DNA of 36,699 nucleotides, taken from contig JAJEIW010000220.1 of NCBI GenBank assembly GCA_022828045.1, positions 1 to 36,699 on the forward strand. Direction: 5' to 3'. The translations under genes and the position numbers were made by a program. The notes under the pieces are model-generated. The model was not told the DNA's origin. It did no database searches and saw nothing but the letters and a program-made list of their open reading frames with translations. Source of the DNA: Acidimicrobiia bacterium (lineage in GTDB: Bacteria; Actinomycetota; Acidimicrobiia; Acidimicrobiales; Poriferisodalaceae). Below, piece after piece: positions 15,305 to 36,698 of this stretch; within the stretch, counting starts at the first letter, position 1, and every line of letters begins with the position of its first letter.

Positions 15305-15793
15305 TTATGAGCTCGATGGCACGAGCACGACCCGGCGTCTCGGCTCGTCACCGACCGAAATAGTGTCGACGCCGGAGATCTCGTTCGCGGTGTCGTGCAC
15401 AACCTTGCGATCTGCCGCGTTCATCGGCTCGAGTCCTCGTTCGGTCCCCCGGTCCACCACGGCTTGAGCGAGCTCGCGAACGTATGCCTCGAGTGCTTCG
15501 CGTCGTCGTTGGCGGTAGCCGCCTACGTCGACCCGGACGCGGGCGCGGCGCACTCCTGGAAGCCGACGCTGCAGCATGGTCTTGGCGACTTCCTGAAGTG
15601 CCACCACATGGCGTCCGCGCGGACCGATCAGCAATCCCAAGGATTCATTGGTGCCTTCAAGATTGATCTCAAAGCTGTCGTCGTCTGCAGTGACGGGAAC
15701 CGCCGTCGCCTCGATGCCGAACGCCTGCACCAAGCCATCCAAGAACTCCTGCACCATGGCTTGCTGTTCGGCTATCGTTGTTTCACCTGTCAT
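15305..15793 (-). CDS. jag: KH-R3H RNA-binding protein (C-terminal half of Jag/KhpB)
   Basis: LGLLIGPRGRHVVALQEVAKTMLQRR (KH) and LEPMNAADRKVVHDTANEISGVDTISVGDEPRRRVVLVP (R3H); own SD AGAGGTG upstream of ATG 15793. Confidence 0.9.
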   Translation of the reverse strand: MTGETTIAEQQAMVQEFLDGLVQAFGIEATAVPVTADDDSFEINLEGTNESLGLLIGPRGRHVVALQEVAKTMLQRRLPGVRRARVRVDVGGYRQRRREALEAYVRELAQAVVDRGTERGLEPMNAADRKVVHDTANEISGVDTISVGDEPRRRVVLVPSSS

Positions 15794-15961
15794 CTTGATC
15801 ACCTCTGATCGGGCTCGCATACGTAGTGGCCCGCCACGCGGAAGCTTGTCCACGCGTGCTGATGTCACATTGCTCGCACGACGTGAGCGCTGCTCAGCCT
15901 ACGGGTCTGCGGCCGCGGAACCCCTGAGATTTGCGACGTTCATTACGGCAGCACGCAGCAT

Positions 15962-17014
15962 TCAGGGTCGGGACGAATCGCACCGAGGCCCGTCGGCATA
16001 GAACTGAGCGCAATAGGCCCGGTACTTCATGATCTCGCCGTCCGTGTGTACGAGCCGGGGACGCGGCACGTAGTGCTTACGACTCCAGATGACCTCATCC
16101 TGCTGAACGTCTCGGATCTGAAAGTCCGCAATGAACTTGTTGATGATGGGTGCTCGCATCCGTTGGGGCAAGAAGTTCAGGCCGGCGATGAAGCGCTTGG
16201 GCTCACGCAATGTACGCATCCTCGACACGATGGACATATCGATCAGCGTGCCGTCAACCGGCGTCGCCAACACCCATAACTGGGCATCGATGCCGATCGA
16301 ATGCTCCTGAAACTCGACGAACGAGTAGCCCAGTCCCACAACGTGGGCAACGGCCGATACATGCAGGGTGAGCCTGGAGAGCTTGGCAATCCTCCGGGTC
16401 GTCGAGAATCCGAACCTGCTCTCGAGTCGCGGCCCGTCGATCAACACTGGCGCATCACTCGTGACGTTGTGGTAACCGTGGATATAGCTCAGATGCGCAA
16501 TGTCCACCGAGTTCTCGCTGGTCTCCTGCGGATGGCCGGCAAAGCGAATCGTCCGGATCTGCAAATCGGTCCAATCGTCGCCGGCTCCCGGGACATCAGG
16601 CAGCTGCCACTGTGAGGGTCGTCCTCCAAGGCCCCGCCAACCGAAGATCAGACCTTCGATCTCACGCACTTCGAGGATGTCCAGATTCGCGGATCGGGCG
16701 GGCGCCCCAGATGGCGTGGCCACGCACTGCCCGCTGGTCTCGAACTCGAAGCCGTGAAAGGGACAGACGAGTCTCCCGCCGACTACTTTCGCTCCGGCTT
16801 CGGGTCCCAGGTCGGAGCCCAAGTGGGGGCAAACCGATCTCGCGATGCAGATCTGGCCGACCGGATCAGCCCAGATGACGATCTCGTCGCCCATCCAGGT
16901 TCGTTGAATCAATCCCGCCTTCTGAACGGCGGCGCGCGTCGCAATGAAGAACCAGCCTTCTGGAAATGGTGGGAGCGAACTAACGTTTGCCCCTTGCTGG
17001 AGTCCGGCGATCAT
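15962..17014 (-). CDS. Rieske non-heme iron oxygenase, KshA / cholesterol-desaturase-like
   Basis: Rieske CPHLGSDLGPEAGAKVVGGRLVCPFHGF (CxH...CxxH); mononuclear Fe motif ENSVDIAHLSYIH (E-x3-D-x2-H-x4-H); PEGWFFIA N-terminus. Confidence 0.88.
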   Translation of the reverse strand: MIAGLQQGANVSSLPPFPEGWFFIATRAAVQKAGLIQRTWMGDEIVIWADPVGQICIARSVCPHLGSDLGPEAGAKVVGGRLVCPFHGFEFETSGQCVATPSGAPARSANLDILEVREIEGLIFGWRGLGGRPSQWQLPDVPGAGDDWTDLQIRTIRFAGHPQETSENSVDIAHLSYIHGYHNVTSDAPVLIDGPRLESRFGFSTTRRIAKLSRLTLHVSAVAHVVGLGYSFVEFQEHSIGIDAQLWVLATPVDGTLIDMSIVSRMRTLREPKRFIAGLNFLPQRMRAPIINKFIADFQIRDVQQDEVIWSRKHYVPRPRLVHTDGEIMKYRAYCAQFYADGPRCDSSRP

Positions 17015-17180
17015 CGAGACGCGCTCTTCATCAGAAACGATGCCAGCAGGCTAGACCGCATAGTGAGCACTACCGAGAAATGGCGGTGCAGCACTCCACA
17101 CCCTCAAGTATCCGTACACTCGGCACGATCTTCCCAGACGTCGGAATGTGCACTGTGACCGGCGTGATCAGGAGTGTCAC

Positions 17181-19223
17181 TTGACTATTGCATCGTCGGC
17201 ATCGACCAAGATCGCGGCTGCGCGGCCGCTCGACCTGACCGAGGAGCTCATCTTGGTGCTGCTCAACGAGGAGAGCGGGTACTTCCACCAGGTTCCCGGT
17301 TGGCACCTGAATTGCGCCATGGCCGGTGCGGCGCTTGCCGAGCTCTCGCTGCAGGCGCGCATTGACACCGACATGGAGTCGCTGATCCTGCTGGACCCCA
17401 CGCCGACCGGCAAGCCGATCTTGGACCTCGCCCTCCAGCAGATCTCCAACGAGCCCGATCAGCGCAGTGCTCAGTACTGGGTGGAGCGTCTTGCGCCGCG
17501 CGCCGAAATGATGATCGACTTGGCATTGGAGCAGCTGGCCAGGCTCGGGATTCTCGAGCGTCACGACGGCGACTTCTGGAGCTTGACGGCCGCGGCACGG
17601 CACGGCGATTTCTTCGCCGACGATGACGACGGCACTGCCGCCCAATTCATCAAGACACGCATCGGCAGAAAGATTCTGCTGGGCGAGATTCCCAGCCCGA
17701 GAGACGTCATCATCATCGGCCTCGCCCACACCTGCGATGTCCTGCGCTTCATCTTCGAACTCGACGACGAAGCGGAAGAGCGGGTTCAGCTCATCTGCCA
17801 GATGGACCTGATCGGCAGGGCCATCGCAGATGCCGTCGCGCACAACTTGGTGGCGTCGCTGCTCAGAAGCTCTGCGCTGATGAAGTCGGTACCCAAGCTG
17901 CCGCTCAACAAGCTGCTGCTCAATCGTCATTTCCTTCGGGGAAACATCCCAGCTGTCTATGCACAGCTGACCGAAGAATTCGGTTCAGTCTTCAGGCTCA
18001 GCCCCCTGTTCTCCAGACAGGAGATCACGTTCCTATCAGGCACTCGCGTCAATCGCTGGGTTCACCGTCATGGTCGCATGCACCTCAGATCGAGCGATTA
18101 TCTCCGAGGTCTCGAAACTGCGTATCACGCCTCCGGGCTGCTGCCTGCGTTGGATGGTGCGGACCATTTCCGCATGCGCAAATCGCTGCGTGCTGGCTAC
18201 GGTCGCGCACGGTTCGAACAGCAGCTCGAAATGGTATATCAGCACGCCCGGACGTACATCAGCAAGTGGAATGTCGGGGACACATTTGGCGCCGTGTCGA
18301 TGTGTCGCGGTTTCTCCGGCGCCCAGGTCACGCCGTTCCTCGCAAGCATCGAGGCAGATGATGTCATCGACGACCTCATCACTTATAAGTCCCGAGTGCT
18401 CATGACCCAAGTCGTCAACGTGTTGCCGAACTTCATGCTCAATACGCCGCGCATGAAGCGCAAGAAGAACGTTGTCGACGTTCTGTACAAGCGCGTGCTG
18501 GAATCTCACACGGCCGCGCAGAGGGCTGGTTGCCCTCGCGACCTTGCCGACGACGTACTCAGCATGCACATCAGCGATCCGATCTTCGTGCCCGAGTCAA
18601 ATCTCAGCTTCACCTTCTCGGCACCAGTATTGGCAGGCATGTACGCAGGAGACGAACTCAGCTTCATCCTGCATGCGATGGTCTCACAGCCGCATTTGTA
18701 TGAACGCATCCAAGCCGAGGCTGACGCTCTGTTCACCGACGGAGATCCATCGCCGGAGGACTTGAGTTCTTCGGCGACCGACGTCACTCGACGGTTCATC
18801 ATGGAGTGCTTGCGGCTGTGGCCTACGGTGCCGATGTCGATCCGCACAGTGATGAACGCATGTGTCGTCGAAGACTACGAACTGCCGGTCGGATCCAAAG
18901 TGTTCATTGCCACGACTGCACCGCACTACATGAGCGAGGTCTTTCCGGATCCATTCACTTTCGACATTGACCGCTACCTGCCATCGCGCGGCGAGCACCG
19001 CACACCGGGATTCGCACCGTTCGGCCTCGGCACACACAGCTGCCTTGGTTCTCACATGGTTGAACTGCAGATGCTGCTGAGCCTGTTGATGCTCGCGCAT
19101 TACTTCACCTTCGAGATCTCGCCGTCGAACTACAAGCTGAGGATCAGCCCGTTTCCGTCAATGTCGCCCAACAAGCGGTTCAAGCTCAAGGTCGCGAAGC
19201 AGAGGCACCCACTGACAAAGTGA
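17181..19223 (+). CDS. Fusion protein: N-terminal GPP34 (GOLPH3-like) domain + C-terminal cytochrome P450
   Basis: GPP34-like LDLTEELILVLLNEESGYFHQVPGWHLNCAMAGAALAELSLQARIDTD...ILLDPTPTGKPILDLAL; P450 ECLRLWP (ExxR) and FGLGTHSCLG heme loop; single uninterrupted frame; TTG 17181 with SD AGGAG (ORF track GTG 17148 is alternative). Confidence 0.85.
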   Translation: MTIASSASTKIAAARPLDLTEELILVLLNEESGYFHQVPGWHLNCAMAGAALAELSLQARIDTDMESLILLDPTPTGKPILDLALQQISNEPDQRSAQYWVERLAPRAEMMIDLALEQLARLGILERHDGDFWSLTAAARHGDFFADDDDGTAAQFIKTRIGRKILLGEIPSPRDVIIIGLAHTCDVLRFIFELDDEAEERVQLICQMDLIGRAIADAVAHNLVASLLRSSALMKSVPKLPLNKLLLNRHFLRGNIPAVYAQLTEEFGSVFRLSPLFSRQEITFLSGTRVNRWVHRHGRMHLRSSDYLRGLETAYHASGLLPALDGADHFRMRKSLRAGYGRARFEQQLEMVYQHARTYISKWNVGDTFGAVSMCRGFSGAQVTPFLASIEADDVIDDLITYKSRVLMTQVVNVLPNFMLNTPRMKRKKNVVDVLYKRVLESHTAAQRAGCPRDLADDVLSMHISDPIFVPESNLSFTFSAPVLAGMYAGDELSFILHAMVSQPHLYERIQAEADALFTDGDPSPEDLSSSATDVTRRFIMECLRLWPTVPMSIRTVMNACVVEDYELPVGSKVFIATTAPHYMSEVFPDPFTFDIDRYLPSRGEHRTPGFAPFGLGTHSCLGSHMVELQMLLSLLMLAHYFTFEISPSNYKLRISPFPSMSPNKRFKLKVAKQRHPLTK

Positions 19224-19605: not shown

Positions 19606-20799
19606 TCATCGTTTGCGACGGTTGCGGGTTCGACCATCTCCCGAGGTGCGACGACTCTGGATTCGCTTGGGTTGCGGTTCCGGAGCTGAGCGCCCGCGTC
19701 GACGGCCCCGGTTTTCCGAGGCATCCCGGCGCGATGAGGAAGCGCGGCCCGCAGACGAAGCTGCCCGCCGACTGCGCTTGGGGGGCTCGGGAGGTTGCTG
19801 GGAAGCAGCCCGAGTCCGGCGAACCACCGGCGCTTGGGGCGGTTCCGGTTCTTCAGTGCTCTTGCTCTGTACGTCAGGGACGGCTGCGCGCCGTTCTGCG
19901 CGCCGTTCTGCCCGAGCCGCGCGCCGAGCCGCCTCAGCATCAAGCGCCTTGCGTGACCGCTGGTTCGGCATCGGACGCTCGGGTTCGGGAACCGTCTCGG
20001 CCTCGATGACGTCACCGTCGCTGCCAGAAGCGGCGATGGACTGCGGCGGCTTCATCGTGGCGTGAATGAACGCTTGGGTCAGCATCCGGTAGATGCTCGA
20101 CACGATGAAGTACGGCACCAACGCTGCGGCCACAAAGAAGCTGAACACCGGCAGCATGAAAGGCAGGTACTTCATCATGACTTCCATCTGGCGATTCGGC
20201 ATCGCCGCGCCGCCGCGCCGCCGCGCCATCTGCCGCTGCTGGAGGAAAGCGAGCAGGAAGGTGACCGCCACGAGAGCCAGATAGGGCAGCCCTTCCACGA
20301 AGTCGGCCTGCACGACTTCTCGGGCCGACTTGGCCAAGTCCATGCCGAGCGAGCGCAACTCGCCGTCCGCCGCGACGATGTCCTCGTACATCTGCGAGTC
20401 GGAATTCAGGTTGCGCGGGTAGGGATCGTCGCCCGGATTCGGGGGATTCGGGTCGGGAATGCGCAGGTTCCAGATCACCCGGTACAGCACGAAGAAGATC
20501 GGTATCTGCACCAGGTTCGGCAAGCACCCGCCCAGCGGGCTTACCCCGTGGGCCTGGTACAGCTTCATGATCTCTTCGTTCATCTTCTGACGGTCGCCGG
20601 CGTACTGCTTGCGCAACTGCGCCATCTCGGGCTGCAGCACCTGCTGTTTCGTCATCGAACGGGCGCCCCGCAACGTCAGCGGGGTGAACACCAGCATGAT
20701 CGCCAGCGTGAGCATGGCGATGGCAAACGTGTAGTCGTTGACCAGCGAGTAGAACCACGCCATCACGCCGGCGATGCCGTCGAAGATCACGTCGAACAT
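19606..20799 (-). CDS. yidC: Membrane protein insertase YidC/Oxa1 with long basic C-terminal tail
   Basis: [79 protein letters not shown]. Confidence 0.95.
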
Positions 20800-35465: not shown

Positions 35466-36362
35466 TCAGCTGTGCAAGCCGATCAGGGTCTCGCGAGTAG
35501 CAGCCTGCTCGTCAAGCGTCCCGAACGCCATGGCGGCGCATGACGTAACGCCGTGGTCGGCGAGGGCACCGATGCGGTCGCTGACTTCGGCAGCGCTGCC
35601 GATGATGGCGATGTCCTCGGGCCCGTCGTATCCCTCACGATCCAGCATCGCCCGGTAGCTCGGCAAGGTGCCGTAGACCACGAGATCCTTGGCGGCGCGC
35701 TCGCGCGCCGTCGCCGCATCATCGGTCACGCAGACGGGAAATCCGGCTACCACCTGCGGCGCAGGCCGTCCCGCTTCGGCCGCTGCCTCATTGATCGTCG
35801 GAGCGGTATGGGTGCCGAGCGTCACCGGCCCGGTCATCCACGTGAAGGTGCCGTCGGCCATCCGTCCGGTGAGTCGCAGCATCTGGCTGCCGAGGGCCGC
35901 AACGAACACCGGCGGGGCTTCGGCGGGCGGGGGAGTGATCTCGCCACGCCCGGTCACTGCATCGCCGCCGTGCGAGACGCGTCGGTCCGTCATCAGTTTC
36001 GTCAGGATGGTCAGGTAGTCGCGCATGTGCGCAATGGGCCGGTCGAACGAGTACCCCCACATGCCTTCGACCACCGGCTTGTGCGACGGACCGATGCCCA
36101 AGTCCAGCCGCCCGCCAAGCACGGCCTGAGTCGTGAGCGCCTGCTGGGCCAGCATCATCGGGTGCCGCGGGTAGGTGGGTACTACTGCGGTGCCGAGCCG
36201 GATGCCGGGCACCTCGCGGCCGGCGACGGCGATGGTGGTCAGCGCGTCGTGGCCGAAGATCTGAGGCGTCCAGTAGCGCCGAAAGCCCTGCTCGGAGGCC
36301 TCGCGGATGCTGGCCTCGAAGCGTTCAGGTGTGGTGTCGAATCCGAACAGCTCGATATGCAT
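35466..36362 (-). CDS. LLM class F420-dependent oxidoreductase
   Basis: GFRRYWTPQIFGHDALTTIAVAGREVPGIRLGTAVVPTYPRHPMMLAQQALTTQAVLGGRLDLGIGPSHKPVVEGMWGYSFDRP. Confidence 0.88.
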   Translation of the reverse strand: MHIELFGFDTTPERFEASIREASEQGFRRYWTPQIFGHDALTTIAVAGREVPGIRLGTAVVPTYPRHPMMLAQQALTTQAVLGGRLDLGIGPSHKPVVEGMWGYSFDRPIAHMRDYLTILTKLMTDRRVSHGGDAVTGRGEITPPPAEAPPVFVAALGSQMLRLTGRMADGTFTWMTGPVTLGTHTAPTINEAAAEAGRPAPQVVAGFPVCVTDDAATARERAAKDLVVYGTLPSYRAMLDREGYDGPEDIAIIGSAAEVSDRIGALADHGVTSCAAMAFGTLDEQAATRETLIGLHS

Positions 36363-36425
36363 GCCCGGCAGCGTAACGGCGCGCCCAACAATGTTTCCGG
36401 GTTGGCAACCGAGACGGCCCCAGGC

Positions 36426-36698
36426 TCAGGCAAACGTGTCGAAGAGCTCCTCGAGCGCCTTGAGCTGGCCGCCGCTCGTGCTGGACGGCACCAGGATCGG
36501 TGTCTTGCAGCCAGCGTCGAACCATGCCTCGACGCCGTCGCGGACTTGGCTGGCCGACCCGTACAGCGTCGCGTTCGACAGCCAGTCATCGGTCATGGCT
36601 CGGTTCAACGCCTCGGAGTCGCCCGCGGCGATCGCCGTCTCAGCCGCGTCCATCTCGTCGACCCAGCCGGCTTGCTTCCAGTAGTTCCGGTAATTCGG
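36426..36698 (-). CDS. LLM class flavin-dependent oxidoreductase, C-terminal part (gene runs off window)
   Basis: Frame open to window end: PNYRNYWKQAGWVDEMDAAETAIAAGDSEALNRAMTDDWLSNATLYGSASQVRDGVEAWFDAGCKTPILVPSS. Confidence 0.75.
   Translation of the reverse strand, partial: PNYRNYWKQAGWVDEMDAAETAIAAGDSEALNRAMTDDWLSNATLYGSASQVRDGVEAWFDAGCKTPILVPSSTSGGQLKALEELFDTFA

Follow-up and report, generated by a model that had tools for sequence, protein, structure and literature searches.

Among the solved P450s that a profile search places closest to the protein described here is the CYP51-ferredoxin of Methylococcus capsulatus (6mcw/7snm), a bacterial, sterol-sphere P450 carrying a second domain. 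Contrary to that enzyme, the extra domain of our protein is an N-terminal GPP34 instead of a redox partner, and its P450 has neither the CYP51 signature nor the I-helix threonine. The gene next to it shares its fold, Rieske cluster, mononuclear iron motif and KshA_C domain with KshA, the 3-ketosteroid 9-alpha-hydroxylase oxygenase (4qdd, 2zyl), which provides its best solved fold relatives; however, the two share no more than some 20-22% of residues, and the genes around it are sterol-building rather than sterol-degrading. The GPP34 fold, in turn, is that of GOLPH3/Vps74 and of the GOLPH3-like SCO4440 from Streptomyces (PMC12402492); neither GOLPH3 nor SCO4440 is fused to a P450. According to this 2025 Streptomyces study, GOLPH3-like proteins were previously undescribed in prokaryotes.

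Sterol genes of sponge symbionts have been described as an ERG24-CYP51-LSS cluster (PMC9531527), as msb genes (PMC7074536) and as sterol methyltransferases (SMTs), the last of these studies reporting functional SMTs from sponge-symbiont bacteria (PMC10070321). Our locus has in common with them a spread over many phyla, signs of probable horizontal transfer and an SMT, but it belongs to a separate gene set, and most genomes carrying it have no squalene epoxidase. A further parallel is the sterol transporter BstA of M. capsulatus, an MMPL/RND protein encoded beside sterol genes (PMC10942540), as is the transporter of our gene set, even though the latter reaches a mere 19.5 bits with the model for BstA, whose cut-off is 1400.

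What we refer to here as the window is the whole stretch of DNA analysed, 36,699 nucleotides long. In our reading, to which we give a probability of about 0.62, its GPP34-P450 fusion and KshA-like Rieske gene form the oxygenase half of a sterol-remodelling module shared across phyla. The domain architecture appears to be undescribed, and the sterol-associated module is newly recognised. Full-text searches of openly accessible journal papers returned no description of a GPP34-P450 or GOLPH3 fusion ('Gpp34' also designates insecticidal proteins, which are unrelated); the sequence-only reading, too, knew of no such characterised architecture. In the searched text of two of the symbiont studies, GPP34 is not mentioned in PMC9531527 nor GOLPH3 in PMC10070321. 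Almost nothing is known of what GOLPH3-like proteins do in bacteria, where a conserved P450 fusion in a sterol context would be the first clear enzymatic setting of the domain. The module, moreover, marks symbiont genomes of many phyla and is distinct from the published sterol operon, so it is relevant to the question of which organisms produce or modify the side-chain-alkylated sterols found in sponges, and to the dispute over sponge sterane biomarkers.

The fusion protein and its divergent neighbour

A single uninterrupted frame of 691 codons (17148-19223, plus strand) encodes a GPP34 domain followed by a cytochrome P450, both well above the curated Pfam cut-offs (114.3 bits against 29.1 for PF05719 and 127.9 against 22.8 for PF00067). 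The sequence-only reading had proposed this single frame, together with complete Rieske and mononuclear iron motifs in the divergent neighbour, while allowing that the N-terminal ~230 residues might score to a family other than GPP34; the Pfam scores and the ligand conservation given below bear out both proposals and leave the domain as GPP34. The real start is most likely the TTG at 17181, since orthologues begin there and the codon is preceded, at a distance of 6 nt, by an AGGAG ribosome-binding motif, whereas the GTG at 17148 is unconserved in the congener compared. The AlphaFold model of the whole protein (mean pLDDT 81.8, pTM 0.69) leaves the arrangement of the two domains unsure.

Table 1. 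Features of the locus and its surroundings, in window positions
Feature	Position	Strand	Details
khpB (jag), flanking the insertion on the left	15305..15868	-	PF01424 R3H; R3H/KH protein
Rieske / KshA_C non-haem iron oxygenase gene	15962..17014	-	Pfam Rieske 3.4e-14 and KshA_C 1.7e-23, both over cut-off; divergent from the fusion
Intergenic region between the divergent fusion and Rieske genes	17015..17180	.	166 bp; AGGAG before TTG
GPP34-cytochrome P450 fusion gene	17181..19223	+	680 aa from probable TTG start; longest frame from GTG 17148
GPP34 (GOLPH3-like) domain	17235..17843	+	PF05719, 1e-32, residues 30-232
Cytochrome P450 domain	17916..19193	+	PF00067, 6.2e-37, residues 257-682; ECLR; FGLGTHSCLG
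yidC, right border of the insertion	19606..20799	-	PF02096 (60KD_IMP)
Pair of luciferase-like monooxygenase genes where the contig ends; second gene truncated	35466..36698	-	PF00296 for 35469-36362

The P450 half has the defining ExxR (ECLR) and haem-loop motifs, and E553, R556, G626, G628, H630, C632 and G634 do not vary in any of the 86 sequences aligned. Its I-helix departs from the acid-alcohol pair AGx(D/E)T: in a HMMER alignment to CYP51 the threonine position holds L, V, A or M, and the canonical threonine is absent from all 86 sequences, with no conserved threonine in the neighbouring I-helix registers. The helix reads A[SG]xYxGD in place of the CYP51 signature AG(H/Q)HTS, with Y499, G501 and D502 invariant or nearly so instead. 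Other P450s without this threonine are known, with altered proton delivery, and the chemistry of this one may likewise be unusual, given the loss of the residue; it may not be an ordinary monooxygenase. In a profile search against the PDB, the best matches are CYP51s (1.4e-38); other P450s, several steroid enzymes among them, come next, with CYP46A1, CYP90B1 and CYP21 lower down. An identity as CYP51 is nevertheless rejected, given the I-helix motif and the separate CYP51, with AGQHTS, that lies elsewhere in G130. When the model of the fusion was submitted to a fold search, the top 50 matches were all P450 heme domains, so that the search is silent on the GPP34 half.

For that half, a profile built from 24 relatives matches the human GOLPH3 chain 3kn1_A (3.7e-6, positions 8-194). 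The PI4P-binding residues of GOLPH3 are W81, R90, R171 and R174. The position of R90, the sole arginine that could be placed, is occupied by the hydrophobic V, A or I in the fusion relatives; the helix of R171 and R174 aligns weakly, and these arginines are absent. A specific phosphoinositide tether consequently finds no support, the R90 contact being lost. We infer instead a general membrane adaptor for the P450.

The divergent gene carries the Rieske motif CPH...CPFH and the mononuclear iron motif E-x3-D-x2-H-x4-H (ENSVDIAHLSYIH), with cluster and iron ligands kept in 63 of 63 relatives, and these, in the form CxH...CxxH plus E-x3-D-x2-H-x4-H, together with the KshA_C domain, place it among KshA-type Rieske oxygenases. 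Its AlphaFold model matches KshA5 (4qdd) with an E-value of 1.6e-23 and a TM score of 0.78, at 22% identity. The 4-beta-methylsterol monooxygenase SdmA was also considered and rejected, as model NF052579 gives 23.5-35 bits against a cut-off of 600.

Spread and recurrent neighbours

A scan of the genome collection found 433 relatives, the best 80 of which were fetched. All 80 are fused end to end, with 53-93% identity, and their alignments start no later than query residue 44 and extend at least to residue 680. The MAG labels of these 80 comprise at least eight phyla, with Actinomycetota, Chloroflexota, Pseudomonadota, Gemmatimonadota, Latescibacterota, Nitrospirota, Verrucomicrobiota and Binatia. 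Some of the fusions lie on chromosomes of 2.6-4.2 Mb (OX638375.1, OX638356.1 and OX638325.1), which makes a binning error unlikely for those phyla. An assembly artefact or chance fusion, the former raised in the sequence-only reading for the case that the two domains always occurred as separate genes, is ruled out by the intact copies present in numerous genomes, some of them on chromosomes of megabase size. Within the Acidimicrobiales, the full fusion is present in 12 of 198 genomes, from four genera, one copy being split between two contigs. Close congeners share 91-93% identity at a dN/dS of 0.07-0.09, rising to 0.18 against a more distant congener, and nucleotide comparison of the Rieske gene with congeners gives 0.13-0.15, values that indicate maintenance of both genes under purifying selection. 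The tree of the fusion mixes phyla, with 13 changes of label where 6 would be the minimum, a count limited by the MAG labels and by paralogues; judged from these sequences, the mixing is consistent with horizontal transfer.

The hosts of the fusion appear to be bacteria living in sponges, corals and marine invertebrates. Several MAG names recall what are presumably Aplysina and Porites projects. Others, with the isolate names COS, IRC and RHO, point to a sponge study (PMC8163846). For the SB066x MAGs, a text search gave no confirmation of a sponge origin.

Custom gene calling and clustering around the fusion loci defined four neighbour families over 73 dereplicated loci: the Rieske oxygenase (58 of 73), a flavoprotein of the flavin amine-oxidase type (42), an MMPL/RND transporter with sterol-sensing/Patched similarity (38), and an ERG6-like SMT with a Sterol_MT_C domain (33). 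All four partners accompany the fusion at 15 loci and none of them at 7. The gene order varies, and contig ends truncate a large number of loci, which makes these counts lower bounds. Distances among partners and fusions are correlated in Mantel tests (r = 0.67 for the Rieske enzyme, and 0.51, 0.50 and 0.38 for the other three; all p = 0.001), shared host ancestry contributing to these correlations. The Rieske/P450 pairing, whose lack of conservation would have counted against the sequence-only reading, is kept well beyond the genus; what was pictured there as a simple two-enzyme sequence has turned out to be a module of five genes. Two protein families found at a few fusion loci, of 718 aa (L164:4345-6501) and 842 aa (L135:4114-6642), have no Pfam match and may be wrong-strand calls over the fusion itself, where the gene caller missed it.

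The SMT, of the C-24 type, matches PF08498 above the cut-off, and its family consensus (...FMvfGWgESLHFAP...VGCGiGGPMRRV...) resembles plant and fungal ERG6; the motif is ERG6-like but not identical, since the strict eukaryotic YExGWG occurs in 2 of 36 SMTs. Among the 198 Acidimicrobiales genomes, the SMT is present in 11 of the 12 with the fusion and in 1 of the 186 others, and the 12 SMT-bearing genomes belong exactly to the four genera that hold the fusion (Fisher p = 4e-16, a value overstated by the relatedness of the genomes). Over several phyla, 41 of 49 fusion genomes have an SMT, and none was found in the remaining 8. Full-length flavoprotein orthologues (76-100% identity) were restricted, among 19 genomes tested, to those with the fusion. 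In G175, where no fusion was detected, a flavoprotein fragment and orthologues of the Rieske enzyme and the transporter lie on a contig that ends there, and the fusion may merely be unassembled.

These neighbours also bear on two other explanations. The first is steroid catabolism, in which the P450 as side-chain oxidase and the Rieske enzyme as 9-alpha-hydroxylase would start the breakdown of host sterols for carbon. The Rieske fold and KshA_C domain speak for it, as do the divergent KshA clusters of sponge MAGs (PMC5790920), whereas the recurrent partners are of the kind that build sterol side chains or move sterols, the identity to KshA is low, and no meta-cleavage or KstD-type gene figures among the common annotated families of the neighbourhoods, which renders this explanation unlikely. 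The second is that enzymes of sterol families were recruited to make some other isoprenoid or hydrophobic natural product. Such a pathway would agree with the closest NCBIfam models of the P450, those of pentalenene and albaflavenone oxygenases, although every score falls well short of its cut-off, and with the likeness of the flavoprotein to LkcE; it is made improbable by the SMT, ERG6-like and carrying PF08498, and by the recurrent annotated neighbour families, which include no terpene synthase, prenyltransferase or PKS/NRPS.

Sterol supply and the proposed pathway

The proposed sterol-remodelling module is linked to sterols by genomic association, that is, by the recurrent SMT and sterol-sensing transporter neighbours and by the co-occurrence of the SMT with the fusion, and this association favours the sterol-like substrate already suspected in the sequence-only reading. 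There are points on the other side: non-sterol substrates also occur in the KshA_C, MMPL and amine-oxidase families, some bacterial SMT homologues proved inactive when tested (PMC10070321), and there are the 7 loci devoid of nearby partners, the 8 fusion genomes with no SMT, and the scattering of the module in the window genus.

As for the origin of the sterol, squalene epoxidase was found neither in G000 nor in four tested members of the window genus, while 12 of 49 fusion genomes give strong matches, the frames measuring 1116-1409 aa; of the 12 Acidimicrobiales fusion genomes, 3 have the enzyme. In G056 (L170:6830-10204), one frame joins squalene epoxidase to both cyclase domains of the oxidosqualene type, resembling the bifunctional MsbE (PMC7074536). 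The epoxidase-cyclase frame was seen also in G130 (L169), G098:C67 and G183:C39, all Acidimicrobiales of family f57, with domains confirmed in G056. It could be proposed that the fusion contributes a tailoring step to the known bacterial de novo pathway (ERG24-CYP51-LSS), for example its 14-alpha-demethylase, given the CYP51 matches of the P450 profile and these epoxidases, cyclase-fused in G056. However, G130 encodes its epoxidase-cyclase with ERG24, a VanA_C Rieske protein, the separate CYP51 and an SMT; with the fusion devoid of the CYP51 I-helix motif and most fusion genomes of an epoxidase, this proposal appears quite unlikely. The separate CYP51/ERG24 set of G130 and the general lack of epoxidase set the fusion module apart from the published de novo clusters (PMC9531527). 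From these absences, noted in draft genomes, most hosts probably act on acquired rather than self-made sterols.

In the proposed module, the P450 and the Rieske enzyme would oxidise a sterol that most hosts take up; the flavoenzyme, which resembles LkcE and the lipid double-bond isomerase 2b9w, would move or introduce a double bond, the methyltransferase would alkylate the side chain, and the transporter would put the product in the envelope. GPP34, as a peripheral membrane adaptor, would hold the P450 at the lipid surface where the substrate lies. A more specific version, which we offer only tentatively and regard as rather unlikely, makes the fusion the founder of a new family of membrane-recruited P450s, unusual in their threonine-free oxygen chemistry and preparing scavenged host sterols for the SMT, for example by side-chain desaturation or oxidation, and so a horizontally transferred route to side-chain-alkylated sterols in unrelated sponge symbionts. 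If true, the pathway would yield side-chain-alkylated sterols like those that serve as biomarkers of animals.

Placement in the window genus and related genes

In the window, where parA, parB and dnaA are recognised from their sequences, the fusion and Rieske genes are inserted between khpB and yidC, as they are in the window genus. In G132, from the same family, about 0.65 kb separates khpB from yidC and the pair is absent; khpB adjoins yidC in G119 and G118, whose fusion lies elsewhere in the genome. The setting near oriC is therefore a lineage-specific insertion. The position, noted in the sequence-only reading as one that normally holds core genes only, is rejected as a functional clue, as the placement is peculiar to the genus and the module is not at oriC elsewhere. 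An rsmG-like gene (window:14593-15237) lies on the strand opposite to khpB/parA here and in the congener G100, and on the same strand in G132, which indicates a local inversion.

The module is scattered in this genus. In the congener loci L167 and L168 the luciferase-like genes have the same order as in the window and the module SMT follows directly (L167:7237-8274), some 18 kb from the pair and, in window terms, just past the end; PF00296 is also found in the full-length L167 orthologue of the truncated second gene. The flavoprotein of G059 lies about 70 kb from the fusion, and of the module transporter the genus has a 39% homologue only, or none.

Most of these genomes also have a stand-alone GPP34 gene, G000 included (C213:12006-12602), and G056:C81 has two in tandem (L047:7615-9009). 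Two congeners, G184 and G059, encode a second, paralogous GPP34-P450 fusion of 25-27% identity (L033:8283-10289 and L034:8469-10478), which shows the architecture to be broader than one family. The paralogue adjoins carboxyltransferase and CoA-transferase genes, and in G059 a sterol-methyltransferase homologue (L174:6355-7410) lies about 10 kb from it.
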